Assembly: GCF_000310205.1 (NCBI RefSeq)
Contig: NZ_AMXE01000020.1
Span: 1 to 49,140 of the forward strand
Reading direction: 5' to 3'
Source: Thauera linaloolentis 47Lol = DSM 12138
GTDB lineage: Bacteria > Pseudomonadota > Gammaproteobacteria > Burkholderiales > Rhodocyclaceae
DNA: 49,140 bases
Each line of letters opens with the position of its first letter. Positions within the stretch are counted from its first letter, which is position 1. Of the stretch, positions 3,787 through 17,980 are shown in pieces. The notes under the pieces are model-generated. The model had not been told where the DNA came from. It ran no database searches and saw only the letters and a list, made by a program, of their open reading frames with translations. A program made the position numbers and the translations under genes.

Positions 3787-5993
3787 GATGCGCTCCTCGT
3801 CGACGTGACGGCGCTCAGGCCTTGGGCGGCTGGCGCCGGCTGGATCGGGATGTAGTAGCCGTCCTTGCCGATCGGCGTCAGCGTCAGGCCGGCCTTGGTG
3901 CGGCGCTTGCGCTCCTGCGCCAGCGGCGGGCAGGTGTTCTCGTCGGTATAGAGGATCATGCAGTCGAGGCAGTGCATGCATTCGCGATGGTCGATGCGGC
4001 CGTGCTCGTCGATCGCCAGCGAACCGCAACCTACTGCGCAGGCCTTGCAGGTGCTGCATTCCTGCTTGCGCTTGAGGCCGAACCAGCGGAAGGTCGAAGG
4101 CATCGCCAGCGAGGCGCCGAGTGGGCACAGGTACTTGCAGAACGGCCGCTCCATGAAGATCGACAGGCCGAGCAGCACCGCCACGAACAAGGTGTAGGGC
4201 CAGGCGCGGTTGAACATGCCGACGAGGAAGGTGGTCTTGAACGGCTCCACCTCGGCCAGCATCTCGGCCAAGCCCATCGAGAACACCGATACTGTGAGCA
4301 GAATGAAGAACACCGCGTACTTGATCCACTTCAGGCGGTTGTGCCACTTCATCGGCAGCTCGAACTGGAAGCGCTTGAGGCCGATCGTTTCTCCCACCTT
4401 GTGGATCAGCTCGGACAGCGAGCCAAAGGGGCACATCCAGCCGCAGAAGAGTCCCCGGCCCCACACGAAAGTGGTGAGGATGATGAAGATCCAGAACAGG
4501 AAGATGAAGGGATCGGTCAGGAACAGCTCCCATTTCCACTGAAACAGCAGCGAATGGAACCAGGTCAGCACCTGCGTGATCGAGGGCTGTGCGAGCAGGC
4601 CGAAGCCGACGAAGCCGATGCTGATCACCCAGAAAGTGTATTTGAAGGCGTTGACCGGCCACTTGTTCTTGCGCGTCGAGCGGCGCGTCAGCGCGTCGCG
4701 CTTGGCATAGACCACGGCCACGGCCACGAGCAGCGCGGCGAACAGGCCGATTTCCAGCGCGCGCGTCTTCCACACCCGCACCCAGGGGGCGTCGGGCTTC
4801 TTCACCTCCGGGCGGCCGCCGTCGAGGTAGGCCGCGGGCAGCCAGTATTCACGGTCGAAGTTCACGAAGGTGCGCGCGCCCGTCTCGCGGTCGACGCGGT
4901 TGCCGAGGAAGATGAACTTCCACGGGAAGGCGCCGGAGAAGGCGGGCGAGCGCACGATGAATATGCCCGATTCGTTGAAGGCCGGGGCGCCGGGCGCCGA
5001 GATGCCGTACAGGTTGAGGTAGTCGAGGTCGCGGAAGGTGAAGGCGTCCTGGCCCTGGCGGATCTGGATGCGATCGTAGATGCCGCCGCGTACGAAGCCC
5101 GAACCCTTGAAGGATTCGTTGCCGCCGGTACGGATCACGAACAGCGCGTGCTCGCCTTCGGCCAGCCGGCTCATCAGCGTGCGCCAGCCGGTTTCGCCCA
5201 TGATCGCGCGGCCGACCTCGGGGTGGTTCAGGTAGCCGTACCACAGCTCGATGAAGGGTTCGCTGCTGCGCGCCAGGCCGACTTGCTCGGGCATCACCGC
5301 CAGGCGCTGCACCACGCCTTCGCTGACCATCGTGGCCCAGTCGAGTGCACGGCCGCGGTCGGCGAACTCGGCCTGCGGGCGCACGGCCGCTTCCAGGATG
5401 CCGACCTGGCGGCCGACCGAGGCGCCGGACATCATCATCACCTGGTTCTGCGCGATGACCGTCACCGTGGCGCCCGAGATCGCATCCAGGCCGATGATGT
5501 CTTCTTCCGGGCGCGAGCGGCCGATCTCGATGTTGTCGCCGACGAACTTGCCCAGGTACTGGTCGTTGAACTTGACCAGCGCGGACTCGGGAATGCCCAG
5601 CAGCAGGATCGGCTCGGAGTGCTTGAGGATCTTGATGCCGGCGAAGTGGCCCTGCGGCGTGAGGCCGATCAGCGTGATCACCGGCTTGCCGGAGTAGGCC
5701 GGGGTGTCGGTGACGTCGGTCGACAGCACGACGTAGCCGACCAGCTTGCGCGTGCCGTTTTCCTCCGCGTAGCCCTCGACGTAGGACGGCTGGCCCTTGC
5801 GTTCGGAGAAACTCGTCGCGCCGGGCAGCACGTCGGTACAGGGGACGTAGTCGCACAGCGCCGGCGCGGTATTGACCTCGGGCGGCAGCTTGGCCTCGTA
5901 CGCGCTTTGCGCGCCGGCGGGCGGAGGGAGGAGGGCGACGGCAGCGAGAAGGGCCGCCATTGCGATGCCCCGCAGGGCGGAGAGGGGCTTCAT
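3783..5993 (-). CDS. nosR: NosR, membrane flavo-iron-sulfur protein for N2O reduction
   Basis: Required for nosZ expression and for electron supply from the quinol pool to NosZ. The 736-aa protein has a signal peptide, a periplasmic FMN-binding domain with SGATVT (Thr near residue 176, covalent flavin site), several membrane helices, polyferredoxin-like CGWMCP and CKYLCP motifs in the membrane domain, and a C-terminal pair of 4Fe-4S clusters (CSTCKACAVGC and CMHCLDCMILYTDENTC). The start at 5993 (MKPLSAL) has GGAG six bases upstream; an ATG at 6005 is possible but has no ribosome site. The stop overlaps the next gene by four bases. Confidence 0.95.
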   Translation of the reverse strand: MKPLSALRGIAMAALLAAVALLPPPAGAQSAYEAKLPPEVNTAPALCDYVPCTDVLPGATSFSERKGQPSYVEGYAEENGTRKLVGYVVLSTDVTDTPAYSGKPVITLIGLTPQGHFAGIKILKHSEPILLLGIPESALVKFNDQYLGKFVGDNIEIGRSRPEEDIIGLDAISGATVTVIAQNQVMMMSGASVGRQVGILEAAVRPQAEFADRGRALDWATMVSEGVVQRLAVMPEQVGLARSSEPFIELWYGYLNHPEVGRAIMGETGWRTLMSRLAEGEHALFVIRTGGNESFKGSGFVRGGIYDRIQIRQGQDAFTFRDLDYLNLYGISAPGAPAFNESGIFIVRSPAFSGAFPWKFIFLGNRVDRETGARTFVNFDREYWLPAAYLDGGRPEVKKPDAPWVRVWKTRALEIGLFAALLVAVAVVYAKRDALTRRSTRKNKWPVNAFKYTFWVISIGFVGFGLLAQPSITQVLTWFHSLLFQWKWELFLTDPFIFLFWIFIILTTFVWGRGLFCGWMCPFGSLSELIHKVGETIGLKRFQFELPMKWHNRLKWIKYAVFFILLTVSVFSMGLAEMLAEVEPFKTTFLVGMFNRAWPYTLFVAVLLGLSIFMERPFCKYLCPLGASLAMPSTFRWFGLKRKQECSTCKACAVGCGSLAIDEHGRIDHRECMHCLDCMILYTDENTCPPLAQERKRRTKAGLTLTPIGKDGYYIPIQPAPAAQGLSAVTSTRSAS

Positions 5994-6021
5994 GATGCGC
6001 TCCATTAGGAAATTGCGATGG

Positions 6022-6063
6022 AGTCTAGGAAAGCCGGAACAGGGTGTATTTGTCCCGGATCAA
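6022..6063 (-). promoter_or_regulatory. Candidate FNR/DNR-type promoter of nosR
   Basis: The minus strand reads TTGAT-CCGG-GACAA (6063-6050), matching eight of ten bases of the FNR/DNR consensus. TAGACT (6027-6022) is a -10 hexamer with its centre 32 bases downstream of the box centre, the class II activator arrangement. The predicted start is near 6015, 22 bases before the nosR ATG at 5993. Confidence 0.6.
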
Positions 6064-6099
6064 TTCGTCGGAGAAGGCGTGCCGCGGCGCGTCTGGAAA

Positions 6100-6130
6100 A
6101 GCAACAGGGGGCTTGGCGCCCCCTGTTGCT
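6100..6130 (-). terminator. Intrinsic terminator after nosZ
   Basis: A perfect 13-base stem (AGCAACAGGGGGC and GCCCCCTGTTGCT) with a 5-base loop is followed on the minus strand by TTTT. It lies 24 bases after the nosZ stop and before the nosR promoter, so nosZ is probably a monocistronic unit. Confidence 0.9.
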
Positions 6131-6154
6131 ATGCGGCCTGCTAGCGTGCCGGTG

Positions 6155-8104
6155 TCATGCCTCGACGATCATGCGGCTGCGCATTTCGAGGTGCAGCGCA
6201 TGGCAGAAGTGGGTGCAGTAGCACCAGAACACGCCCGGCTTGTCGGCCTTGAAGGTCACCGACTTGGTTTCCTGCGGATTGACGATGAAGTTGACGTTGT
6301 ACTTCGGAATCGCGAAGCCGTGCGTCAAGTCTTCGATCTTGTCCAGGTTGGTCAGGATGACGGTGACTTCGTCGCCCAGCTTGAGCTTGAACTCGCGCGG
6401 CTCGAAGGCCGGCGCCAGCGAGGTGATCTTGACCGTGACCTTGTTGCCGTCGCGGAACACGCCGGCCTCCTTCGCATCCTTGACCGCGTTCGGGAAGTCG
6501 TTGATGTCGTACACCTGCTTGGGCTGCAGCAGGTCGCGCTTGAAGATGATGAAGTCGTGCGGCTCGGGGCGGACCGGGTGGTCAGCCATCAGCACCATCT
6601 TGTCGCCCGAGATGTCGACCAGCTGCTCGGTTTCGGCGTGCAGCGGGCCGACCGGCAGGAAGCGGTCCTTCGAGAACTTGCACCCCACGCACAGCCACTT
6701 GCCGTCGGCGAACATGGTCTCGGACTGCGAGGCGTTGATGTGGCCGGGCTGGTAATGCACGTCGAGGCGGTCGACCACGTACTGGGCGTTGGTGTCGCCG
6801 CCGTGGAACTTGATGGCCGCCTCCACGTTCCACTTCACGATCTGGCTGTCGAGGAACAGCGTGGTGTAGGCATTGCCGCGGCCGTCGAAGGCCGTGTGCA
6901 GCGGGCCGAGGCCGATCTCGACTTCGGCGACGATGGCCTTGTCCAGGTCGTCCAGCTTGCCGTCGAACCATTCGAGCACCTTGGCCAGCTCGATCACGGT
7001 GGCGGTCGGCGACAGCTTGCCGGCGCAGATGAAGTACTTGCCGTCCGGGCTGGCGTTGACGCCGTGCGGGTTCTTCGGAACCGACACGTAGGCGACCAGC
7101 GCGGTCGCGGGGTCGGCGTTGGCGGCCTTGGTGCCATCGACGACCGGCACCTTGGAGGTGCCGAAGGTCTTGAACTTGCCGTCCTTGACCGCCTGCTCGA
7201 TGCGGCCGACGTTGAAGAAGATGCAGGCGTCGCGTTCGGCCGACATCATGCCTTCATAGTGGTAGCCGCCCTCGGTGTTGTACTGGTTCGAGGCGGCGAG
7301 CTTGCCGTCGTACGAAGTGGCGACGAGGTCGCAGTTGCCGTCGATCAGGACCTGCCAGCGCACGTCCATGGTTTCGGCATCGATGCAGCTGAAGAGCGCG
7401 CGGTATTGTTCCGGCGCATCGGCGTCACGGCCGTCGTTCGGCAGCGGAGTGTGGAACTCGGCGCCGCAGAACACGCGGGTGGTGTAGTTGATCGCGGGAT
7501 CGACCGGGTCGCGCTTGTCCGGGAAGATGCCGTGGAAGCCCTGCACGTTGGGCAACTCGGTGATCTTGTCGCAGATCAGGTAGTCGAGCCGGATGCGGGC
7601 GATGCGGCTGTTGATCTTGTCGTTGATCCACGCATAGCGGCCGTCGTAGTTGCCGTCCTTGTACGAGGCGTGGGTGTGGTGGGTGTCGCCGACGGTGTAG
7701 CGCAGGCTGCCGTCGGGCTTGGTGCCCATGACCGCCTTCGATTCGTTGGTGACGCCCCAGCCCACGAGCGCGTCGGGGACGAAGCAGGGCACGCGGTGCA
7801 GTTCGCGCCCGGAAGGCAGACCCAGCACGCGGAAGTCGCCGGTGTGGCCGCCGCTCCAGAAGCCGTAGTAGGTGTCGAGTTCGCCCGGCTTCAAGTGCAC
7901 CGAGTTGTGCGCTGCCGCGGGGGCAGCCGCGGATACGGCCGCGGGCGCGGCCGCCGGGGCGGATTCCTTGTTGCATGCCGACAGGCCCACCGACAGGCCC
8001 GCGCCGGCCAGGCCGGCGAAGGCGGCGGTGTTGAGGAACTTGCGGCGGTTCGGGTCGGGCATCGCGTCGGCCTGGTTCATCTTCACATCTTCGTTCATGA
8101 TCAT
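6155..8104 (-). CDS. nosZ: NosZ, nitrous oxide reductase (Tat-exported, clade I type)
   Basis: Periplasmic enzyme reducing N2O to N2, the last step of denitrification. The 649-aa precursor carries a twin-arginine signal (RRKFLNTAAFAGLAGAG) near residue 20, which marks clade I. CuZ ligands are visible in VGDTHHTH near residue 140. The C-terminal cupredoxin domain has the CuA motif (WCYCTHFCHALHLEM) near residues 625-640. GGGAG lies 4 bases before the first ATG (8104) and 10 before the second (8098), so either start is possible. It is flanked upstream by an FNR-like promoter and downstream by a strong terminator. Confidence 0.97.
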   Translation of the reverse strand: MIMNEDVKMNQADAMPDPNRRKFLNTAAFAGLAGAGLSVGLSACNKESAPAAAPAAVSAAAPAAAHNSVHLKPGELDTYYGFWSGGHTGDFRVLGLPSGRELHRVPCFVPDALVGWGVTNESKAVMGTKPDGSLRYTVGDTHHTHASYKDGNYDGRYAWINDKINSRIARIRLDYLICDKITELPNVQGFHGIFPDKRDPVDPAINYTTRVFCGAEFHTPLPNDGRDADAPEQYRALFSCIDAETMDVRWQVLIDGNCDLVATSYDGKLAASNQYNTEGGYHYEGMMSAERDACIFFNVGRIEQAVKDGKFKTFGTSKVPVVDGTKAANADPATALVAYVSVPKNPHGVNASPDGKYFICAGKLSPTATVIELAKVLEWFDGKLDDLDKAIVAEVEIGLGPLHTAFDGRGNAYTTLFLDSQIVKWNVEAAIKFHGGDTNAQYVVDRLDVHYQPGHINASQSETMFADGKWLCVGCKFSKDRFLPVGPLHAETEQLVDISGDKMVLMADHPVRPEPHDFIIFKRDLLQPKQVYDINDFPNAVKDAKEAGVFRDGNKVTVKITSLAPAFEPREFKLKLGDEVTVILTNLDKIEDLTHGFAIPKYNVNFIVNPQETKSVTFKADKPGVFWCYCTHFCHALHLEMRSRMIVEA

Positions 8105-8182
8105 GTCGCTCCCGTTCTGGCTTGATCGGCGTTCGTCCAGTCATCCGGAACGCGTGCGTCTTGCGCGGGCTGGGCGGATGCC

Positions 8183-8214
8183 TGTGACAAAATGTCCTGT
8201 GGCGTTTTGTCGCA
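8183..8214. promoter_or_regulatory. Inverted repeat at the nosZ transcript start
   Basis: TGTGACAAAA (8183-8192) and TTTTGTCGCA (8205-8214) form a 10-base inverted repeat with one mismatch and a 12-base spacer. If nosZ transcription starts near 8213, as the upstream box predicts, the repeat covers +1 to about +31. It could be a repressor operator or a stem-loop at the 5' end of the nosZ message. The binding protein is not identifiable from the sequence. Confidence 0.55.
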
Positions 8215-8219
8215 GGTGC

Positions 8220-8261
8220 ACTCTAGGCCCGGCTGCGGGGGCAAACCTTGATCTGGGTTAA
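8220..8261 (-). promoter_or_regulatory. Candidate FNR/DNR-type promoter of nosZ
   Basis: The minus strand reads TTAAC-CCAG-ATCAA (8261-8248). The plus-strand orientation shows a perfect TTGAT half-site. TAGAGT (8225-8220) is the -10-like hexamer, again 32 bases from the box centre. The spacing fits transcription toward nosZ; no matching -10 is found toward regB. Confidence 0.6.
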
Positions 8262-8294
8262 GGACCGTCCTTTCCGTCGGCATCGGAAGCGGCC

Positions 8295-9677
8295 GTGTCC
8301 GTATGGGATTTCATCAGGATGAATCTTCTTCGCGGCGGTTCCAGCGCATCGCAGTCCGACCCCGCAGGCTTGGTGGGCGCTTCCCGTACGGGCGGGGGCG
8401 GCATGCCCACCGAGCCGGAGATCGCCGCGCTGCGCACGGATCCGGCCCGCCTGCTGCAATTTCGCTGGCTGTCGGTCGCCGCCATGGTGGCGATGGCCGT
8501 GCTCGTGTTTCCCGTGCTTGCTCCTGGGCATCCCGCGCAGCCCCTGCTGGCGGTGGCGCTGGTCCTGGCGGCGGTGAACCTGGCCCTGCTGGCCGGCCTG
8601 GCGCGCTGGCTCGACGGGCGTGGCGGCGCCTTCGTGCAGCTGCTGCTCGACCTGCTGGGCTGGGGAGCTTTCCTGTTCTACGGCGGCGGCGTCACCAATC
8701 CGGCGATCTCGTTGCTGCTGCCGGTCGTGGCGGTGGGCGCCTCGATCCTGCCCGCGCGCCAGGCCTGGGCGCTGGCGGCGGCCGCGATCGGCGTCTATGC
8801 GGTGTTGTGGGAGTTTCATCATCCGGTGCGTCTCGCCGATGCCGCCGCGGCGATGCACTGGCACCTCGCCGGCATGTCGATCAGCTTCGCGCTCGCCGCG
8901 GTGACCGTGGTGTGGTTCATCGCCCGGCTCAATGCCGAGCTGGCGAAAGGTGCGGCGGCGCTTGCCGAGGCCCGCTCCGCGCGCGCCCGCGACGCCCACG
9001 TCGTCGCCCTTGGCAGCCTTGCGGCTGGCGCGGCGCACCGGCTGGGCACGCCGCTCGGCACGCTCCGCATCCTGGCGGACGAACTGGCGCGGCGGGACGG
9101 CCTGGACGGCGAAATGCGCGAAGACCTCGGCCTGATGCGGGAGCAGCTCGATCATTGCCGCGAGATACTCAACAGCCTGACGCGCGAGGCCGGTCAGCAG
9201 CGCGCCGAAGGCGGCGGGGCAGAATTCGCCGGGCCATGGCTGCGCGCCGCGGCGGCGCGCTGGCAGCGCCTGCGCCCGGAAGCCGGCTTGCGCCTGGAGA
9301 TCTCCCCCGAGCTGTCGGCGCACAGTCTCGTTGCCGACGCGAGCCTGGCCGAGGCGCTGCAGAATCTCATCGACAATGCGGCCAATGCCAACGCGGCGGC
9401 GGGCCGCGCCGGCACAGCGGTGGAGGTGCGCGCAGCGCTGGACGACGGCGGAATGCTGCGGATCGACGTGCTGGACAGCGGCTCGGGCATCGCGGAAGGG
9501 CGGCTCGCGGCGGCGCGCCATGCGCCGCTCGGCAGCCACGCCGAAGGCATGGGGGTCGGGCTGATGCTGGCGCATGCGGCGGTCGAGCATCACGGCGGCC
9601 AGCTGGATTTCCTCTCGCGCCCCGGTGGCGGCACCATTGCACGCATTGCCGTCCCGCTGCGTCCCGCTGGCGCATGA
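8295..9677 (+). CDS. regB: RegB/PrrB/RoxS-family redox sensor histidine kinase
   Basis: Membrane sensor kinase (460 aa from the GTG at 8295; ATGs at 8319 and 8403 are alternatives and the start is unsure). Six hydrophobic segments occupy roughly residues 55-210 and include GGGVTNP, the conserved quinone-associated motif of RegB. The H-box is AAHRLGTPLGTL with His248. Cys288 lies exactly 40 residues after it, the same spacing as His225 to the redox-active Cys265 of Rhodobacter capsulatus RegB. The ATPase domain has N-box NLIDNAANAN and G-boxes DSGSGI and GMGVGLML. RegB homologues respond to quinone redox state and oxygen. The stop is embedded in ATGA, although the cognate regA now lies 3.8 kb downstream. 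Confidence 0.92.
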   Translation: MSVWDFIRMNLLRGGSSASQSDPAGLVGASRTGGGGMPTEPEIAALRTDPARLLQFRWLSVAAMVAMAVLVFPVLAPGHPAQPLLAVALVLAAVNLALLAGLARWLDGRGGAFVQLLLDLLGWGAFLFYGGGVTNPAISLLLPVVAVGASILPARQAWALAAAAIGVYAVLWEFHHPVRLADAAAAMHWHLAGMSISFALAAVTVVWFIARLNAELAKGAAALAEARSARARDAHVVALGSLAAGAAHRLGTPLGTLRILADELARRDGLDGEMREDLGLMREQLDHCREILNSLTREAGQQRAEGGGAEFAGPWLRAAAARWQRLRPEAGLRLEISPELSAHSLVADASLAEALQNLIDNAANANAAAGRAGTAVEVRAALDDGGMLRIDVLDSGSGIAEGRLAAARHAPLGSHAEGMGVGLMLAHAAVEHHGGQLDFLSRPGGGTIARIAVPLRPAGA

Positions 9678-9701
9678 GTCCGGTGCGTCCCCGCTGCTGC
9701 C

Positions 9702-10643
9702 TCACGGCGCGGCGTGCGGCGGGAGTGGCGTGAAGTCCCGGCGTTCGGCGATGAAGGAGGGGCGTGGCGGCAGGCCGCAGAAAGGCGCGGCCGGCGTGTT
9801 GTGCACGCTGTTGTAGACGAAGAAGACGTTGCTGCGCGGCAGCGGCGTGATGTTGGAGTTCGAGCCGTGCATCACGTTGCAGTCGAAGAAGGTCACCGAG
9901 CCGGCCGGGCCGGTGGGCGCGACGATGCCGAACTCTTCGACCAGCCGCATCAGGCTGGCGTCGTCGGGCACGCCCACTTCCTGGCGTCTGAGCGAGGCGA
10001 GGTAGTGCGCCTGCGGCGTCGCGCCGACGCACGAGATGTAGCGCTGGTGCGAGCCGGGAATGATCATCAGTGGCCCGTTGTGCGGCGTGTTGGGCGTCAG
10101 GCTCACCGAGCAGCTCACCATCCGCATCGCCGGAATGCCGTCCTCCATGTGCCAGGTCTCGAAGTCTGAGTGCCAGTAGAACTCCTTGCCGCGAAAGCCG
10201 CTCTTGTAGTTGATGCGCGACTGGTGCAGATAGACCTCGCTGCCGAGCAACTGGCGGGCGATCGCCACCAGCCGGGGATAGGCGCACAGCCGGCGCAGCA
10301 CGGCGCTGCGTCTGTGGACTTCGAACAGCGAGCGCAGCTCGCCGCTGCCGGGTTCGATGATGGCTTCCGCGGCGTGCCTGACGGTTTCGTCGCGGCGCAG
10401 CGCGTCGAGCTCGCCGAGGCAGGCGCCGAGCTCGTCGGCGCCGATCAACTGGTCGAAAGTCAGATAGCCGTTGTCGCGGTAGAAGCGCAGCTCGGTTTCG
10501 CTCAGCGGGCCGTCGCCGGCGTGGCCATGGACCACCGGGTCCTGGCGGTCGGCGATGCGCGGCTCCGGCCAGAAGCGGGACGGATAGCGGTCGTCGTCGC
10601 GCGGCCGGGCATGCGCCGCCCGTGGTGGCAGTGTCGTCGTCAT
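9702..10643 (-). CDS. ectD: EctD, ectoine hydroxylase
   Basis: Fe(II)/2-oxoglutarate dioxygenase converting ectoine to 5-hydroxyectoine (313 aa). The iron ligands are seen in FYWHSDFETWH (HxD) and in DCNVMHGSNSN (distal His). The signature region around the HxD motif and the SPGSHQ-like IIPGSHQRYIS are typical of EctD rather than of general PhyH proteins. The start at 10643 has GAGGAG six bases upstream. It is the last gene of ectABCD, 13 bases after ectC, and its stop lies 24 bases from the end of the convergent regB. Confidence 0.95.
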   Translation of the reverse strand: MTTTLPPRAAHARPRDDDRYPSRFWPEPRIADRQDPVVHGHAGDGPLSETELRFYRDNGYLTFDQLIGADELGACLGELDALRRDETVRHAAEAIIEPGSGELRSLFEVHRRSAVLRRLCAYPRLVAIARQLLGSEVYLHQSRINYKSGFRGKEFYWHSDFETWHMEDGIPAMRMVSCSVSLTPNTPHNGPLMIIPGSHQRYISCVGATPQAHYLASLRRQEVGVPDDASLMRLVEEFGIVAPTGPAGSVTFFDCNVMHGSNSNITPLPRSNVFFVYNSVHNTPAAPFCGLPPRPSFIAERRDFTPLPPHAAP

Positions 10644-10656
10644 GACGTGCTCCTCT

Positions 10657-11046
10657 TCAGTCGGCCAGGACGTAGGCGCCGCCTGCGTCATGCACCTCGC
10701 GCCCGGTCAGCGGCGGGTTGAAGACGCACACCATGCGCATGTTCACGCCCTTATTGGCGCGCAGGATGTGGCGGTCGTGGGCGTCGAGGGCGTACAGCGT
10801 GCCCGGCCGGATGGGGTGGGTGAGGCCGGTGGCGAGATCGGTGATCTCGCCCTCGCCGTCGATGCAATAGACGGTTTCGAGATGGTTGCGGTATTCCATC
10901 TCGAGTTCGGCGCCGGCCTTGATGATGGTGTCGTTGACCGAGTAGCCCATGCCATCCTGCTTGTAGATGAGGCGGCGGCTGGTCCAGCCTTCGGTGTCGA
11001 CGTCGGCCGCGGTGCCGATGATGTCGTCGAGATGTTTCACGATCAT
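10657..11046 (-). CDS. ectC: EctC, L-ectoine synthase
   Basis: Cupin enzyme (129 aa) that cyclises N-gamma-acetyl-diaminobutyrate to ectoine. The start [12 protein letters not shown] at 11046 is typical of the family, as are [37 protein letters not shown] and the C-terminal [14 protein letters not shown]. Length equals that of characterised EctC. The frame is open upstream but the added residues do not match the family. It lies 47 bases after ectB. Confidence 0.96.
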
Positions 11047-11093
11047 GATTCGAGCCCTCGATGTGCTTGGGGTGGAAAAGGTGATGCGGCGCC

Positions 11094-12362
11094 TCAGGCG
11101 ACCTGGCCGATTTCTGCGGCGAGCGTGGCGGCGAGCGCGGCGTCTATCGTGTCCAGCCCTTTCGTCAGCGTTGCCTCGTCCATGGTCAGGCTGGGCAGCA
11201 GCTTCAGAACCTGGCCGTCGATGCCGGCGGTCTCGATGATCAGTCCACGCTCGAAGCAAGCCTGGGAGACGCGGCCGGCAAGTCCGGGGTCGCCGAACTC
11301 GACCCCCTGGATCAGGCCGCGGCCGCGCACCGCGCCTTCGACACCGTGCGACTTCAGCATGCGTTGCAGGTGCTTGTGCACCCGTTCACCCTTGTGCTCC
11401 ACCGCGCGGTTCAGGCGGTCGTCCTGCCAGTAGTGTTCCAGCGCCGCGGTTGCGGTGACGAAGGCGGGGCAGTGGCCGCGGAAGGTGCCGTTGTGCTCGC
11501 CCGGCGCCCATTGGTCGAGGTCCGGCCGGATCAGCACCAGCGCGAGTGGCAGGCCGTAGCCGGACAGCGACTTCGACAGCGTCACGATGTCGGGTTCGAT
11601 GCCGGCTTCTTCGAAGCTGAAGAAGCCGCCGACGCGTCCGCAGCCGACCTGGATGTCATCGACGATGAGGACGATGCCGTTGTTCCGGGTGATCCGGCGC
11701 AGGCGGCGCAGCCATTCGGCGCTGGCGACGTTGACGCCGCCTTCCGCCTGTACCGTCTCGACGATGACCGCTGCCGGCACTTCCATGCCGCTGCCGTTGT
11801 CGAGCAGCATCGCCTCGAAGTAGTCGAGGGTATCGACGTCGCTGCCGAGATAGCCGTCGAAGGGGACGGAGGAGGCGTGCGACAGCGGCACGCCGGCGCC
11901 GGCGCGCTTGAAGCCGTTGCCGGTCACTGCCAGCGAGCCCAGCGTCATGCCGTGGAAGGCGTTGGTGAAGCTCACCACCTGTTCGCGGCCGGTGACCTTG
12001 CGCGCAAGCTTCAAGGCGGCCTCGACCGCGTTCGTGCCGGTGGGGCCGGGGAACTGGAGCTTGTACGACAGGCCGCGCGGCGCCAGGATCAAATCGTGGA
12101 AGCGTTCGATGAAGCGCGCCTTCGCCGTGCTGTACATGTCGAGCGTATGGGTGATGCCGTCGGCCGCCAGGTAGTCGGTCAGCGCGCGTTTGATGGGTTC
12201 GGGGTTGTGGCCGTAGTTGAGCACGCCGGCGCCGCAGAAGAAATCGAGATAGCGCCGGCCACGCTGGTCGGTCATCCAGGCGCCTTTGGCCGTGGTGAAT
12301 ACTGCGGGGAAATTGCGGCAATAGCCGCGGACCTCGGATTCGTGTCGTTCGAAGACGTTCAT
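11094..12362 (-). CDS. ectB: EctB, diaminobutyrate-2-oxoglutarate transaminase
   Basis: PLP-dependent class III aminotransferase (422 aa) making L-2,4-diaminobutyrate from aspartate semialdehyde. It starts [16 protein letters not shown], typical of EctB. Recognisable elements are [18 protein letters not shown], the PLP-binding [11 protein letters not shown] and the Schiff-base Lys in [11 protein letters not shown] near residue 270. An AGGAGG-like ribosome site (CAAGGAGGAGTCTG) precedes the ATG. It is the second gene of the operon, about 100 bases after ectA. Confidence 0.96.
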
Positions 12363-12462
12363 CAGACTCCTCCTTGTAATGGTCGAGTGGTGACATCAGC
12401 CGGTGGCACCGACTGATGGCGTTGGCAAAGCGCTTGGCGAGCGCCGTCCCCGGCGCAGAGGC

Positions 12463-12990
12463 TCAGGGCGCCGAGCCGTCGAGCGGACCGATGCGGTACA
12501 GGGGTTCCGCAGGGTGCGGACAGGGGAACATGTCCGCTGTGAACAGCGGCGAGACTGCGCAGTCCGTGCCGCAGTCGCGGGCGAAGCGGCGGAACAGCGC
12601 CTGTGAAGCCGTGTTGTCGTCGGCGACGGTGGCGGTGACCCACCTGCAGCCGCGATTGGCCGGCAGCGCGCTCCATTCCTGCAGCAGCTTCAGCCCCAGG
12701 CCCTGGCCGCGGTGTTCCGGCAGGACGCCGATTTGCCATACGAAGGCCGTGTCGGTCTGGCGCGGCGGGTGGTAGCCGACGACGGCGCCGACCATGCGGC
12801 CGTCGTGTTCGGCGACCAGGCAGGTGTCGCCGAAATCGGCTGCGAACAGGAGGTAGAAATAGGCTGAATTGAGTTCCAGCGCGCCCGTGGCTCCGACCAG
12901 CCGCCACAGGGCGGCGCCGTCGTCGGGGCGTGCGGGCCGGAAATGAAGGGGACGGGAAATGCTCGGCTTACGTCGGTCCGTGTCGTTCAT
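12463..12990 (-). CDS. ectA: EctA, diaminobutyrate acetyltransferase
   Basis: GNAT-fold acetyltransferase (175 aa from the ATG at 12990) that makes N-gamma-acetyl-diaminobutyrate. Family hallmarks are FRPARPDDGAALWRLV, LELNSAYFYLLFAADF, the acetyl-CoA loop VLPEHRGQGLGLKLL and ADDNTASQALFRRFA. No clear Shine-Dalgarno precedes this ATG, and the frame stays open to 13092, so a start slightly upstream cannot be excluded. It is the first gene of ectABCD; neither an ectR nor an aspartokinase gene is adjacent. Confidence 0.93.
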   Translation of the reverse strand: MNDTDRRKPSISRPLHFRPARPDDGAALWRLVGATGALELNSAYFYLLFAADFGDTCLVAEHDGRMVGAVVGYHPPRQTDTAFVWQIGVLPEHRGQGLGLKLLQEWSALPANRGCRWVTATVADDNTASQALFRRFARDCGTDCAVSPLFTADMFPCPHPAEPLYRIGPLDGSAP

Positions 12991-13050
12991 GCCATGGGTT
13001 GTTTGTCGGTGGTGCGGCGTTTGCCATCGGATGGCGAGCGGCACACCAAG

Positions 13051-13088
13051 CCGGCGGGCGTCGCCTGCCGGCCGGCCCCGAAGGGCCT
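13051..13088 (-). ncRNA. Structured leader of the ect operon (two hairpins)
   Basis: In the minus-strand RNA a GGCCC-UUCG-GGGCC hairpin (13088-13075) with the very stable cUUCGg tetraloop is followed at once by a second hairpin with six-base GCCGGC arms (13073-13051). Both lie 60-100 bases before the ectA ATG, inside an untranslated leader of about 210 bases. A role in mRNA stability or translation is inference. Confidence 0.5.
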
Positions 13089-13207
13089 GCAAAGGAACTC
13101 AAGCGACGCTCAGGCCGTTGAATGAACCCGACCTGACCGGCTGCCGGCCGCGGATCGGGCGAAGAATCACGAAGGATTCGCCGGGAGGTGAATGCGTGTT
13201 CGTATAA

Positions 13208-13237
13208 ATTATATTGCGACAAATATAATTTGTGCAA
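13208..13237 (-). promoter_or_regulatory. ectABCD promoter with embedded palindromic operator
   Basis: Minus strand: -35 TTGCAC (13237-13232), an 18-base spacer and a perfect TATAAT -10 (13213-13208). Inside the spacer sits a perfect palindrome, ACAAAT-ATA-ATTTGT (13219-13233), placed to block or twist the promoter if bound. The stretch is AT-rich in a GC-rich region. The regulator is unknown; EctR-type MarR proteins are one possibility, but none is encoded nearby. Confidence 0.75.
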
Positions 13238-13380
13238 GCGCTCATGCAGTGTTTATACAGATGGAGCCTCGCGTCCGGTGCGTGCATGGGGGCTTCTGCG
13301 GATGGCCTGGGCCTGCATTGACCGGGGTTTTGCGTGGGCGGGTCCTCCATCGCGCGGTGCCGTATCGGTCCGGCGCGGGG

Positions 13381-13455
13381 TCGGATTTCCTTTCGTGTCC
13401 GGGAGGTGGCAACATTGCGCGCTCCGCCGTCCCGCTGCATCAGCCTGCCGCATGA
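13381..13455 (+). pseudogene. Remnant of the 3' end of a second regB copy
   Basis: Read in the frame ending at the TGA 13453-13455, this encodes DFLSCPGGGNIARSAVPL and a few more residues. That matches the C-terminus of the intact kinase, DFLSRPGGGTIARIAVPL, followed in both cases by a five-residue tail and stop. The DNA aligns without gaps over about 75 bases at roughly 78 percent identity by eye with 9605-9679. Weaker similarity may begin near 13345. The stop overlaps the regA ATG as ATGA, exactly as the stop of intact regB does at 9674-9677. Confidence 0.8.
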
Positions 13456-13994
13456 ATTCCGAACACGCCCCGACCCTGCTCGTCGTCGATGACGACCCCG
13501 CCTTCAATCGCGTGCTGGCGCGCGCGCTCGCGCAGCGCGGCTTCGACACCTATGGCGCCACCGACTGTGAAGGCGCGCTCGAACTGGCGCAGGATCATTC
13601 GCCCGAGTTCATCGTGCTCGACCTCAACATCGGCGGCGAATCCGGCCTCAAGCTCATCCGCCCGCTGCTCGACGCCAGTCCCGGCGCGCGCATCCTGGTG
13701 CTGACCGGCTATGCCAGCATCGCCACCGCCGTGGATGCGGTGAAGCTCGGCGCCGTCCAGTACCTGGCCAAGCCGGCCGACGTGGATGCCATCATCAAGG
13801 CCTTGCAGGCCGAGGACGTCGTCATCGACGAACGTGCGCCCGAGGCGCCGATGTCGGTCGACCGCCTCGAATGGGAGCACATCCAGCGCGTGCTCGCCGG
13901 GCACGACGGCAACATCTCGGCGACCGCGAGGGCGTTGCAGATGCACCGCCGCACGCTGCAGCGCAAGCTCGCCCGCCCGCCGGGCGGCACCTGA
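13452..13994 (+). CDS. regA: RegA/PrrA/ActR-family response regulator
   Basis: Two-component response regulator (180 aa) partnering RegB. The receiver domain has acidic pocket DDD (residues 13-15), phospho-accepting Asp57 in VLDLNIGG, Thr and Ala at LTGYAS, and the conserved Lys in YLAKPAD. After a short Pro-rich linker comes a Fis-type helix-turn-helix (HIQRVLAGHDGNISATARALQMHRRTLQRKL) typical of RegA. The start at 13452 (MNSEHAPT) overlaps the stop of the regB remnant; upstream extension of the frame is not RegA-like. In related bacteria RegA controls respiration, denitrification and carbon fixation genes; its targets here are not visible. Confidence 0.93.
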   Translation: MNSEHAPTLLVVDDDPAFNRVLARALAQRGFDTYGATDCEGALELAQDHSPEFIVLDLNIGGESGLKLIRPLLDASPGARILVLTGYASIATAVDAVKLGAVQYLAKPADVDAIIKALQAEDVVIDERAPEAPMSVDRLEWEHIQRVLAGHDGNISATARALQMHRRTLQRKLARPPGGT

Positions 13995-14007
13995 GCGTGC
14001 GCCGTCC

Positions 14008-14901
14008 GTGACCGCCGCACGCCATCCGCTGGAGGCGGATCTGTTCCTGTTGCTGGCCACGCTGGCGGCCGCGGCGGGCTGGATCTTCTCCAAGGAAGCG
14101 CTCGCCGGGCTGCCGCCCCTGCTGTTCGTCGGTAGCCGTTTCCTGCTGGCGGGCGTGGCGCTGGCCGTGTTCGGCTGGCCGCAGCTGCGCGTGCTCGGGC
14201 GCAGGGGCTGGCGGGGCGCGCTGATGGTCGGCGCCCTGTTCGCACTGGCGATGGCGTTCTGGATCAGCGGCCTGCAGCATGCCAGGCACATCGGCGAGGG
14301 GGCGTTCATCGCCAGCCTGGGGGTCGTGCTCGTTCCCCTGGTCGGCCGCCTGTTCTTCGGCGAGCGGCCGCCGCGCATGGTCTGGGTGTCGATGCCGCTG
14401 GCGCTGGTGGGCTTCGCCTGCCTGTCGCTGGAGCACGGCTTCCGCGTCGAGCCCGGGCAGTGGTTCTTCGTTGCGGCGGCGGCGGTCTTCGCGGTGCTGA
14501 TCAACCTCAACGGCCGTGTCGTGCACGACGTTCCGGCGCTGGCGCTGAGCACCGTGCAGGTGACGACGGTCGGGGTGCTGATGCTGCCGTTGTCGGCCGC
14601 GCTGGAAACCTGGCCCGGCGCGGTGCAGGCGCCGGTGCTGGGCTGGCTGCTGGGCAGCGCCCTGTTCGCCACCACGCTGCGTTTTTTCGCCCAGCTCCAT
14701 GGGCAGAGCCTGACCACGCCCAGCCACGCCGCAGTCATCCTGATGCTGGAGCCGATGTGGACCGCGCTTGCCGCCGCGTGGTGGTTCGGCGAGCGCATGG
14801 GCGCGCTGCAGTTCTTCGGCTGTACGCTGATCTTCTCGGCCCTCGTGCTCAGCCGCTGGCGGGTGGTGCGGGACGTGCTGAGGATGCTGGCGGGGCGCTG
14901 A
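14008..14901 (+). CDS. EamA/DMT-superfamily permease
   Basis: Inner-membrane protein of about 297 aa with ten hydrophobic segments in two EamA halves (FLLLATLAAAAGWIFSKEAL at the start, ILMLEPMWTALAAAWWFGERM in the last third). The latter is the usual EamA signature of a late helix. The best start is the GTG at 14008, 13 bases after the regA stop; no in-frame ATG lies nearby. Substrate cannot be told; amino-acid or metabolite export is typical of the family. It may be co-transcribed with regA. Confidence 0.85.
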   Translation: MTAARHPLEADLFLLLATLAAAAGWIFSKEALAGLPPLLFVGSRFLLAGVALAVFGWPQLRVLGRRGWRGALMVGALFALAMAFWISGLQHARHIGEGAFIASLGVVLVPLVGRLFFGERPPRMVWVSMPLALVGFACLSLEHGFRVEPGQWFFVAAAAVFAVLINLNGRVVHDVPALALSTVQVTTVGVLMLPLSAALETWPGAVQAPVLGWLLGSALFATTLRFFAQLHGQSLTTPSHAAVILMLEPMWTALAAAWWFGERMGALQFFGCTLIFSALVLSRWRVVRDVLRMLAGR

Positions 14902-14924
14902 GGGGCAGGGGAGTCTTGCATGCG

Positions 14925-15180
14925 CCGGCCGCCGCCAGGGGCGTTCCAGCGGCCGCGGCCCGGGCCCCTCGCCTCCCAGCGTGTCCTCCGGATTGCGTAG
15001 CGGGCATTCGTTCAGCGACGGGTAGCCGCAGCCGATGCAACTGTCGAGCATGTTGCGCAGGCGTGCCAGGCGCTTGATGCGGGCGTCGAGATCCTCGCGC
15101 CACCTTGATGACCGCGATGTAGCGCAGCGCCACCGCGGGAAAGCGCCGCGGGTTTCCGCGGCGCGGCGAATGGCGACGGC
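14925..15180 (-). pseudogene. soxR: Decayed soxR (redox-sensing MerR-family regulator)
   Basis: Two SoxR segments in different frames are joined near 15098. The upstream one reads RRFPAVALRYIAVIKVA (middle of the DNA-binding domain). The downstream one reads REDLDARIKRLARLRNMLD, then CIGCGYPSLNECPLRNPEDTLGGEG, the C-terminal 2Fe-2S region. About 40 residues are missing between them, the N-terminal helix-turn-helix is not found, the third cluster cysteine is Tyr (CIGCGY instead of CIGCGC), and no stop follows where SoxR ends. The gene is therefore non-functional. Ends are approximate. Confidence 0.8.
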
Positions 15181-15766
15181 GATGCGCGATGCAATTCGTC
15201 CCCGGCCCGGATATTCAATAGGGCCGAAGGCCGGAGCCCATTGTCGGGATGATTGCTTATGATCGGCACATCGGGAAAGTCAATTCAGATATCGATGCGC
15301 GGCTTTTTACGTCGGGGTGCAATCCTCAATTGCGGCCGCCAGTGTCCAGCCGGGCCGAATCCCGTGCGCCGCACCGTCCCACCCGCCGCTCCGATACCGA
15401 AATCAATTGCGATCCGGGGTGGGTGCGCCGGGGTGACTGTTGTCCGAAACTGTATCTGCGGGCCGTCATGTTGCACTGCAGTTCTGTCCTAAGATCGCCT
15501 CCACTCAACGGGCGAACTCCCTCTTCTCCGTATTTTCGGAATGGCCGCCTGGTGGATGCGAAGTGTTTCCATCAGCGGCTCTTTTTTTCGGATGGCAATG
15601 GGGAGATTGAAATAATCGGAAGGCACGGGCGTGATTCGAGGACGCGGTGCGCCGATTGCCCCGAATGAGTGTGTGACCAGGCAGGAGACAACGGATGGAT
15701 GGCAATGGGCAGGACGCCGTACTTTCCGTGTTTTGAATAAAACAGAAAAAATAGAATCAGGAGGAT
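15181..15766 (+). other. Non-coding upstream region of the alcohol dehydrogenase gene
   Basis: About 590 bases with no convincing gene and lower GC than its neighbours, especially 15700-15760. It holds the direct-repeat element at 15431-15457 and, at its end, the AGGAGG ribosome site at 15759-15764. I see no clear sigma-70 or sigma-54 promoter; the region may also contain the lost 5' part of the soxR pseudogene beyond recognition. Confidence 0.6.
15431..15457 (+). promoter_or_regulatory. Direct-repeat operator upstream of the PQQ dehydrogenase (MocR-site candidate)
   Basis: GGGT, then ACTGTT (15436-15441), seven bases including CCG, then ACTGTATCT (15449-15457); the repeat units start 13 bases apart. 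The same arrangement and most of the intervening bases recur at 21876-21902 beside the mocR gene. MocR regulators of the TauR, GabR and PdxR type bind direct repeats, so this is a likely target. It lies about 310 bases before the start codon. Confidence 0.7.
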
Positions 15767-17980
15767 GTGGTGGTATTCATAACGTCATCGAATCGGTTTT
15801 CCTGGCGGAAGGCGTGCCTGGGCATTGCAAGCTGTGTCGCCATTGCCGCCTTTCCATTCCATGCTGCTGCCGCCGCCGGAAACAAATCCGTGGCGGCGGT
15901 CGACCAGAAGCGGCTCGTCAACGCGGCCGCCGATCCGGGCAACTGGATTACCCGCGGCGGCACGTCGGACGAACAGCATTACAGCCCGCTGAAGCGGATC
16001 GACACGTCCAACGTGTCGCGGCTCGGGTTGGCCTGGTACGGCGAATTCGACACCAACCGCGGCCAGCAGGCGACGCCGCTGGTGATCGACGGCGTGCTGT
16101 ACACCAGCACGGCATGGTCGAAGGTGTACGCCTACGATGCCGCCACCGGCGAGCAGTTGTGGTTCTTCGATCCCGAGGTGCCGGGCAAGAAGGCGCCGGA
16201 TGGCTGCTGCGACGTGGTCAACCGCGGCGTGGCGGCGTGGAAGGGCAAGATCTACGTGGGCACCTACGACGGGCGCCTGATTGCGCTCGACGCCAAGAGC
16301 GGCAAGCCGGTGTGGGAGACGCAGACCACCGACGTGACGCGCAGCTACACCATCACCGGTGCGCCGCGGGTGGCCAACGGCAAGGTGTTCATCGGCAACG
16401 GCGGGGCCGAGTTCGGCGTGCGCGGCTACGTGTCGGCGTATGACGCCGAGAGCGGCAAGCTGGACTGGCGCTTCTACATCACCCCCAACCCGGAAGGAAA
16501 GCCCGACGGTGCGGCCTCGGACAGGATCCACCGCGAAATCGGCTTCAAGACCTGGGGCGACGGCTGGTGGAAGCAGACCGGCGGTGGCGGCACCGCGTGG
16601 GATTCCATCGTCTACGACAAGGACTACGACCAGGTCCTGATCGGCACCGGCAACGGCACGCCGTGGAGCCACGTGGCGCGTTCGGGTGGCGAGGGCGACA
16701 ACCTGTTCATCTCGTCCATCGTCGCGGTCGATGCCAATTCCGGCGAGTACAAGTGGCACTACCAGTCGACACCGGCCGAGGAATGGGACTTCACCGCGAC
16801 CCAGCCCATCGTGCTGACCGAGCTGGAGGTCGATGGCAAGAAGACCAAGGTGGCGATGCAGGCGCCGAAGAACGGTTTCTTCTACGTGCTCGACCGCAGC
16901 AACGGCAAGCTCGTTTCGGCGAAGAACTTCATGCCGGTGAACTGGGCCGCGGGCATCGACCTCGAGACGGGGCGCCCCATCGAGTACCCGGCGGCGCGCT
17001 ATTCGAAGCACGGCAACGACTTTCTTGCGATTCCGGGCGCGTTCGGCGCGCACAACTGGCCGCCGATGGCATACAGCCCGGACACCGGCCTGGTGTACAT
17101 CCCGGCGCAGCAGGGTTCGTTCGGCTACAAGCACGACCCGGACTTCAAGTACAACCCGCTCAACGGCGCCTGGAACCTGGCCAACATTTCCGGGCACCCG
17201 ACGCTGGCGCCGCGCGATGAGGCCGACCGCCTGAGCGTCACCCAGAGCTTCCGCGGCGACCTGATCGCCTGGGACCCGCAGGCGCAGAAGGAAGTCTGGC
17301 GGGTGCCGTATCCCTCCATCGGCGCGGGCGGCACGCTCGCCACGGCCGGCAACCTGGTGTTCCAGGGCACGCCGGACGGCATCTTCCATGCCTACGAGGC
17401 CGATACCGGCAAGGAAGTGTGGAGCTACGACGGCCGCATCGGCATCATCGCCGGCGCGATGAGCTACGAGATCGACGGCACCCAGTACGTTGCCGTGCTG
17501 TCCGGCCTGGGCGGTTCGGCCGGCCTGCAGATCCCGCACATGAAGAATCCCCGCGCGGGTATCGGACGGGTGCTGGTGTTCAAGCTCGACGGCAGCGGCG
17601 CCCTGCCGCCCTACGAGCGCGCGCACCGGCCGGCACAGGTGCCGGCGGAGACCTTCCCGCCCGAGATGGTCGCCCGGGGCGCGGCCTTCTACGGTAACTG
17701 CGTGGCCTGCCACGGCTACGGCACCTACACCAATGACGAGGTCGTGCCCGACCTGCGCCGCTCGCCGCTGCTGCTGGACAAGGCGTCGTTCGCGGCGGTG
17801 GTGTATGACGGCATCCGCGAAAGCCGCGGCATGGTGAGCTTCGCCGACCGCATGAGCCGCGACGACGTGGAGGCGCTGCGCGCCTGGCTGGTTGACCGCG
17901 CCATCCAGCTCAAGGCGGACGAGGCGGCCGAGCAGGCCGCGCGCGCATCCGGCAATCCGGCCGCCAAAGCCAACCCCTGA
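15767..17980 (+). CDS. PQQ-dependent quinohemoprotein alcohol dehydrogenase
   Basis: Periplasmic dehydrogenase of 737 aa with a signal peptide, an eight-bladed PQQ propeller (repeated W-motifs such as YAYDAATGEQLWFFD and HAYEADTGKEVWSYDGR), the vicinal disulfide Cys147-Cys148 in DGCCDVVNRG, and a C-terminal cytochrome c domain with CVACH (Cys645, Cys648, His649). It matches type II quinohemoprotein alcohol dehydrogenases, which oxidise primary alcohols and pass electrons to cytochrome c or azurin. At the usual catalytic Asp the sequence reads Glu (TPAEEWDF, Glu338). The start is GTG 15767 or GTG 15770; AGGAGG ends two and five bases before them. Substrate is not predictable; no pqq synthesis genes are in the window. 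Confidence 0.92.
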   Translation: MVVFITSSNRFSWRKACLGIASCVAIAAFPFHAAAAAGNKSVAAVDQKRLVNAAADPGNWITRGGTSDEQHYSPLKRIDTSNVSRLGLAWYGEFDTNRGQQATPLVIDGVLYTSTAWSKVYAYDAATGEQLWFFDPEVPGKKAPDGCCDVVNRGVAAWKGKIYVGTYDGRLIALDAKSGKPVWETQTTDVTRSYTITGAPRVANGKVFIGNGGAEFGVRGYVSAYDAESGKLDWRFYITPNPEGKPDGAASDRIHREIGFKTWGDGWWKQTGGGGTAWDSIVYDKDYDQVLIGTGNGTPWSHVARSGGEGDNLFISSIVAVDANSGEYKWHYQSTPAEEWDFTATQPIVLTELEVDGKKTKVAMQAPKNGFFYVLDRSNGKLVSAKNFMPVNWAAGIDLETGRPIEYPAARYSKHGNDFLAIPGAFGAHNWPPMAYSPDTGLVYIPAQQGSFGYKHDPDFKYNPLNGAWNLANISGHPTLAPRDEADRLSVTQSFRGDLIAWDPQAQKEVWRVPYPSIGAGGTLATAGNLVFQGTPDGIFHAYEADTGKEVWSYDGRIGIIAGAMSYEIDGTQYVAVLSGLGGSAGLQIPHMKNPRAGIGRVLVFKLDGSGALPPYERAHRPAQVPAETFPPEMVARGAAFYGNCVACHGYGTYTNDEVVPDLRRSPLLLDKASFAAVVYDGIRESRGMVSFADRMSRDDVEALRAWLVDRAIQLKADEAAEQAARASGNPAAKANP

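Follow-up and report, generated by a model that had tools for sequence, protein, structure and literature searches.

A hydroxyectoine operon between the regB-type and regA-type genes of Thauera linaloolentis, and a second copy of the regB 3' end in front of regA

How an operon may come to stand between two genes that overlap in related genomes and leave both of them intact is the question raised by a 49,140-nucleotide stretch of Thauera linaloolentis 47Lol = DSM 12138 (NCBI RefSeq assembly GCF_000310205.1, contig NZ_AMXE01000020.1, positions 1 to 49,140 of the forward strand), hereafter the window. Here ectDCBA (9702-12990, minus strand) is located between the gene of a RegB-type kinase (8295-9677, plus strand) and the gene of a RegA-type regulator (13452-13994, plus strand), and the end of regB is found a second time immediately before regA. 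The history that we consider likely is a single insertion in the common ancestor of the three Thauera species that carry it (the window, G150 and G169, referred to below as the carriers), in the course of which the regB tail was copied, followed by the loss of ehu and tlpA genes in the window. The features at the centre of this reading are the following.

8295..9677, plus strand: RegB/PrrB-type sensor histidine kinase gene, intact, start uncertain (8295 or 8403), with HisKA and HATPase_c domains
9605..9677, plus strand: 3' end of regB, the copy attached to the gene, 57/73 identical to 13383-13455
9702..10691, minus strand: ectD, ectoine hydroxylase, start uncertain, TIGR02408 above cut-off
10657..11046, minus strand: ectC, ectoine synthase, NF009806 above cut-off
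11094..12362, minus strand: ectB, diaminobutyrate transaminase, TIGR02407 above cut-off
12463..12990, minus strand: ectA, diaminobutyrate acetyltransferase, TIGR02406 above cut-off
13383..13455, plus strand: regB tail remnant, immediately before and across the regA start, shortened by insertions and deletions (indels) in G150 and G169
13452..13994, plus strand: RegA/PrrA-type response regulator gene, with Response_reg and a Fis-type helix-turn-helix

The four Ect proteins exceed the cut-offs of their models and their genes are on one strand and in one order, which identifies an ectABCD hydroxyectoine operon. The best NCBIfam family of the kinase is NF033792 (ActS/PrrB/RegB; E-value 9e-52, 176.3 bits, below the curated cut-off of 350 bits) and that of the regulator is NF033791 (RegA/PrrA/ActR; 2e-56, 190.5 bits, below the curated cut-off of 250 bits). 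Since RegB and RegA are the best families but both scores are below the curated cut-offs, the names are kept to RegB-type and RegA-type.

The uninterrupted order of the two regulatory genes is widespread. The genus of the window is represented by 29 genomes in the collection, of which 23 gave a regB match at E up to 1e-60, and 21 loci were compared after the exclusion of G160 and G172, in which regB is cut at contig ends. The regB stop lies within 9 bp of the start of the RegA match in 18 of these 21 loci, with an overlap of 4 bp in 12 of them; the genes are separated in the other three, by 3774 bp in the window, 8650 bp in G150 and 8555 bp in G169, and all three exceptions carry the ect insertion. 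Among 80 named RegA loci, some of which belong to the same genomes as the G handles and the nearest of which are from Thauera, a regB match was found in 76, within 150 bp in 72, at 215-250 bp in three and at 3212 bp in one (L095). No regB match was found in the remaining four, two of which begin within 300 bp of regA (L047, L063), while the other two extend 1.3 kb (L048) and 8 kb (L080) upstream. These counts support the uninterrupted regB-regA pair as the ancestral state and the ect block as an insertion, in agreement with the initial annotation, which had proposed that an ect block split an overlapping pair.

The second line of evidence is the repeat of the regB tail. In a gap-free alignment, the terminal 73 bp of regB (9605-9677) match 13383-13455 at 57 positions (78%), with a blastn E-value of 6e-14 between a 300-bp and a 400-bp segment, which rules out chance likeness; the next best ungapped site for the 71-bp tail anywhere in the window, on both strands, reaches 39/71, and none of 1000 shuffles attained the score of the repeat. 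The claims made from the sequence at first, that the 75 bases before regA match the end of regB at about 78% identity and that both copies terminate in ATGA, thus hold. The remnant is translated as DFLSCPGGGNIARSAVPLHQPAA, followed by a stop, and this peptide is five residues longer than the one originally written down. The likeness is confined to this stretch: no significant repeat continues past ATGA into regA (the lowest of 30 comparisons was reached by 63 of 1000 shuffles), and no clear regB likeness was found upstream of about 75-85 bp, where the three strongest of 12 comparisons, each of which concerns a G150 or G169 remnant, were equalled by 3, 9 and 14 of 200 shuffles. A longer duplication, suggested by the continuation of the window copy as ATGAGTCCGG in a manner similar to the regB/regA junction of G174, was rejected, as the alignments of the flank with the regA start were indistinguishable from the same shuffles. 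An 11-bp match (9678-9688 and 13273-13283, E 0.049) was also weighed as a possible trace of the insertion and attributed to chance.

The remnants of G150 and G169 share a one-base loss and a short deletion. All three remnants read GGGAGGT (Shine-Dalgarno-like, then TTG) at the place of GGCGGT or GGTGGT in six aligned native tails, and in G150 and G169 (loci L147 and L148) this change opens a three-codon frame before regA.

The position of the repeat may explain why it is there. Because the end of regB in an uninterrupted pair overlaps the regA start and the bases ahead of it, an insertion at this point would damage one of the two genes unless the common stretch were present twice, and both copies were probably kept because this stretch encodes the RegB C-terminus and contains the regA start. 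In the history proposed here, a horizontally acquired block, consisting of ectABCD, ehuBCDA and two tlpA-like thioredoxin genes, would have entered the regB/regA junction, after which about 75 bp of the regB 3' end were present twice, the left copy as the full RegB C-terminus and the right one as the sequence over the regA start codon. The copy before regA would then have lost its coding role, and indels would have shortened it in two of the three species. The copying may have occurred by one crossover with a circular molecule that contained a fragment of the junction, by the filling in of a long staggered break, or by the arrival of a donor copy.

Both genes remain under purifying selection, with ratios of nonsynonymous to synonymous substitution rates (dN/dS) of 0.13-0.39 among carriers, compared with 0.04-0.25 in six further pairs. 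A relaxation of selection following the split was considered for regB and is not claimed. The G150-G169 pair gives the highest value of nine regB pairs (0.387, interval 0.26-0.54), with an interval that overlaps two of the six non-carrier pairs and not the other four, and its dS is low; the two remaining carrier pairs (0.23 and 0.25) fall inside the non-carrier range of 0.11-0.25, and among the rpoB values, too, the carriers are towards the upper end.

The full block is seen in G150 and G169, where it occupies about 8.5 kb and contains, from regB to regA, tlpA2, tlpA1, ehuA, ehuD, ehuC, ehuB, ectD, ectC, ectB and ectA. The insertion site, the order of the ect genes and the tail remnant are common to these genomes and the window, and the EhuB of G169 passes TIGR02995. 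The two thioredoxin genes beside regB (L147 12687-14488, L148 6138-7939) encode a divergent TlpA/ResA-like pair with a weak Lgt-like N-terminal part. Within the genus, ehuB (E up to 1e-30) was found in two of the 29 genomes, G150 and G169, and at this locus only; the window genome gave only partial matches of 29-32%. The ectB gene (E up to 1e-60) is present in eight of the 29, in one of them only 41% identical; it is located on different contigs from regB in G174, G152 and G172, while in G153 the ect cluster is found about 12 kb away from regB, in the direction of nosZ. In this last cluster two adjacent EctA-like stretches (60% and 66%) precede ectB (L149 14107-15263). The place where the window would have lost the additional genes is the following.

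9678..9729, no strand: inferred junction of the ehu and tlpA loss, including the altered last ectD codons; about 5 kb here in the sister species

The end of ectD in the window, read by eye, differs from both sisters beyond approximately DFTP, and nothing in the additional 5 kb of the two sisters matches these roughly 50 bp convincingly. Among 399 genomes drawn from the order, the four closest ectB outside the genus are 77-79% identical, compared with 75-76% for other Thauera ectABCD, and three of the four (G274, G349 and G179) belong to complete ectABCD-ehuBCDA clusters. In the fourth, G437 (L199 4767-6774), ectABCD is followed by ehuB, the second half of ehuD and ehuA, and ehuC is absent. Because ehu follows ectABCD in the nearest outside clusters and the ectD end differs from the sisters, the ectABCD-only state of the window is probably due to a later deletion of ehu and tlpA, which would have removed about 5 kb in this lineage and left ectDCBA.

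The carriers were placed by trees of several genes, in which the supports quoted are split values. One of these genes is the divergent neighbour of regB, at a distance of 258-346 bp in all 21 compared Thauera loci.

6155..8104, minus strand: nosZ, nitrous-oxide reductase of the twin-arginine translocation (TAT) type, TIGR04244, 998 bits with a cut-off of 625; outside the insert

The separate trees of regB and ectB recover the carriers as a clade (99 and 100), as do those of rpoB (96) and nosZ (98), and support is weak in regA (57) and eamA (51). A clade of six species, the carriers with G139, G155 and G174, is supported by regB (100; 66 in its last 300 columns) and rpoB (98), and the regA tree adds G152 to it (72). 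The next branch inside this clade differs, with G139/G155 beside the carriers in regB (74) and with G174 in rpoB (78). The nosZ gene was not used as a species tree because it shows transfers in the genus (G155 and G174 apart from G139). As far as these trees go, regB gives no sign of an origin outside the six-species clade. For the tail itself, an alignment of 86 columns and 12 sequences was used to compare five hand-specified topologies. In its tree the regB tails form one group (65) and the remnants another (80), three sequences each and mirroring one another, with a support of 46 for joining the two, and the best of the five topologies is one duplication in the common ancestor of the carriers, while one duplication per species is rejected by the approximately unbiased (AU) test (p-AU 8e-5). 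The copy is thus not recent, as had been argued initially from the divergence of the two segments.

Three other explanations have to be weighed against the insertion with a copied tail. The block might have arrived with the regB sequence of a relative, with recombination at regB, so that the left-hand tail, or the entire left-hand regB, would stem from the donor and the right-hand tail would be native; we regard this as unlikely, though a contender to be taken seriously. It would account for the divergence of the two copies, which is similar to that between species (72% identity in the multiple alignment), and the remnants of G150 and G169 fit the native tails of G139, G155 and G174 better than their own regB tails (64-66 vs 51; 49-63 vs 32), which favours a foreign or fast-changing regB tail. 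A topology with the regB tails of the carriers at the base of the six-species clade, outside the remnants and the native tails, is not rejected (p-AU 0.12), nor is one with the remnants at the base (0.36). The window remnant, however, fits its own regB tail best (66 vs 40-50 for native tails), which opposes a foreign tail; the whole regB keeps the carriers in the six-species clade, like rpoB; a donor near G152 is rejected by the AU test (0.0024) but not by the Shimodaira-Hasegawa test (0.122); and an old duplication with subsequent decay accounts for the distances equally well. The regB allele of a relative, part of the history first proposed for this locus, is thus unproven and not refuted, and regB and rpoB agree on the clade of the carriers. 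That regB and regA were ancestrally apart, with a tail likeness due to convergence or chance, is in turn so improbable that we treat it as refuted by the significance of the repeat and the counts of adjacent pairs. The one unrelated locus that could speak for it is L095 (PHCX01000001.1, a betaproteobacterial metagenome-assembled genome), where both subunits of a cytochrome bd oxidase (PF01654, PF02322) are encoded between regB and regA (4807-7995); no tail remnant was found there, as the score was reached by 340 of 1000 shuffles. Among these loci the junction has therefore been invaded at least two times, and this can happen without a copy of the tail.

The remaining explanation, that ectABCD alone was inserted and that ehu and tlpA were added later between regB and ectD in the ancestor of G150 and G169, appears improbable to us. 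It agrees with the presence of ectDCBA only in the window, with the fetched stretches of G153, G174, G152 and G172, in which no ehu is found beside ectD, and with a tlpA1 homologue (66-67%) elsewhere in G174 that has no ehu beside it. It is opposed by ehu following ectABCD in all four nearest outside clusters and by the ectD end of the window, which is unlike both sisters as would be expected of a deletion junction. An early insertion of the full block thus continues to be preferred, and several points weigh against it: the ehu-less Thauera clusters, the incomplete cluster of G437 and the two basal topologies that were not rejected; the 86 columns of the tail alignment and the value of 46 at which tails and remnants join; the opposite affinities of the window remnant and the other two, which one simple history does not obviously give; the reliance of the ehu loss, as opposed to a later gain in the sisters, on gene order in other families, and for tlpA the lack of such outside evidence of loss; and a mechanism unmarked by the sequence, as no integrase, insertion sequence or att-like element was found among the identified genes of the insert. 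Exchange between the two tail copies in the window may have contributed to the contrasting affinities. A site-specific recombinase was sought in the inserts of the window, G150 and G169 by listing open reading frames, by running Pfam on ten frames of G150 and by mapping homologues, and none was found; an integrase may have been lost. A mobile relative of the block was also sought among plasmids; in the 135 records at E up to 1e-100, the best ectB is 61.5% identical.

The insertion has consequences for the control of both regulatory genes. As ectDCBA is on the opposite strand, transcription from regB would hardly reach regA, which would therefore need a promoter of its own, and separate control of the two genes may soundly be inferred. 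Transcription of regA would now start in the ectA-regA intergenic region, apart from regB. A consensus scan of 9600-13500 revealed no regA promoter; the only site was that of ect at 13236-13208, with 0.2 sites expected. Two features of this region belong to ect.

12991..13200, minus strand: ectA leader, conserved and possibly structured, first hairpin at about 13098-13122; model R1 matches 13068-13126 with 83 bits (a model member)
13208..13236, minus strand: predicted sigma-70-type ect promoter, 10/12 consensus, spacer 17; TATAAT is also present upstream of ectA in both sisters

Between this promoter and the remnant, about 110 bp of the window (13260-13382) have no counterpart in G150 and G169. 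Upstream of ectA, the three carriers agree in every base at 12985-13026 and 13090-13126. The stem of the first hairpin (UUCAACGGCC, a loop of about 5, GUCGCUUGAGUU) recurs letter for letter in seven ect leaders (window, G150, G169, G152, G172, G437 and G708). The model R1 was built from the first six of these. On the 399 genomes of the order it gave matches in 16 (E up to 0.01), strong only in the window and G437, which are model members, and the best weak match, G482, had no ect genes in the stretch fetched. On 74 genomes of the family of G437 the single match at E up to 1e-5 was G437 itself, and on 395 genomes of the family of the window there were five, namely four model members and a new one (4.8e-9). 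The latter, G708, belongs to another genus of the same family and was found blind, with the match located about 100 bases upstream of ectA in an ectABCD cluster. No strong match was obtained for G153, G174, G274, G349, G179 and ten further ect loci, for nine of which only about 1.5 kb around ectB was covered.

The later hairpins of the leader have diverged in sequence, and each leader is predicted to fold into a similar row of them. With folding z-scores between -0.16 and -3.81, stability by itself is no decisive criterion; the value of the window is -1.38, and its best fold changes when three bases are trimmed. In the fold of six sequences, 6 of 33 pairs are changed on both sides and the covariation term is unfavourable. 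A ribosome-binding site is not evident in the leader transcript. Rfam 15 on 8000-16000 gave four matches (E up to 5), all of them short of the gathering score, and the leader strand of 12991-13200 was without a match. The leader appears to be a conserved control element of ect, either RNA or DNA. Only tentatively, at less than even confidence, might the insert be thought to have brought an undescribed cis-regulatory RNA of ectABCD, with a promoter region that doubles as the control region of regA. Among the matches listed in literature searches, on ectoine and Thauera, on ectABC and riboswitch and on wider subjects, no title or opening of an abstract describes this locus or an ect leader RNA. 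One of these papers reports ectoine from halophilic sludge with Thauera dominant (PMC13307581), and the words "untranslated", "riboswitch" and "Thauera" are absent from the main text of an ectoine review (PMC5924519).

Downstream of the locus, the window encodes a PQQ (pyrroloquinoline quinone)-dependent dehydrogenase with a cytochrome c domain (15767-17980; PF01011, PF13442).

The locus presents a case of an operon placed into an overlapping regulator pair with neither gene broken, because the common stretch is present twice, and one genus shows the series of uninterrupted pair, full block and reduced block. If regA has a new promoter beside that of ect, the two members of a two-component pair now form separate units, and the kinase-to-regulator ratio can be tested. 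If that region is common to both, salt stress and a redox-type regulator would share one DNA stretch, and a leader acting as RNA would be a new kind of osmolyte control element.

Some genomic islands insert at a gene's 3' end in such a way that the gene is restored. The block described here is similar to them in that a direct repeat of the target 3' end flanks it on both sides and the gene is intact, and differs in that no recombinase is present among the identified genes, the copies have diverged to 78% identity and a gene other than a tRNA gene is the target. In gene content it resembles the horizontally acquired ectABCD(-ehu) clusters of Proteobacteria, and the sister species have the order ectABCD-ehuBCDA as in G274, G349 and G179; unlike those clusters, it lies inside a regulator pair, and in the window it is without ehu. 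The RegB/RegA redox pairs (PrrBA, ActSR) are the best family for both regulatory proteins and, in uninterrupted Thauera, are likewise encoded by adjacent or overlapping genes, whereas the proteins of the window score below the curated cut-offs and their genes are 3.8 kb apart, with an operon of the opposite strand between them.

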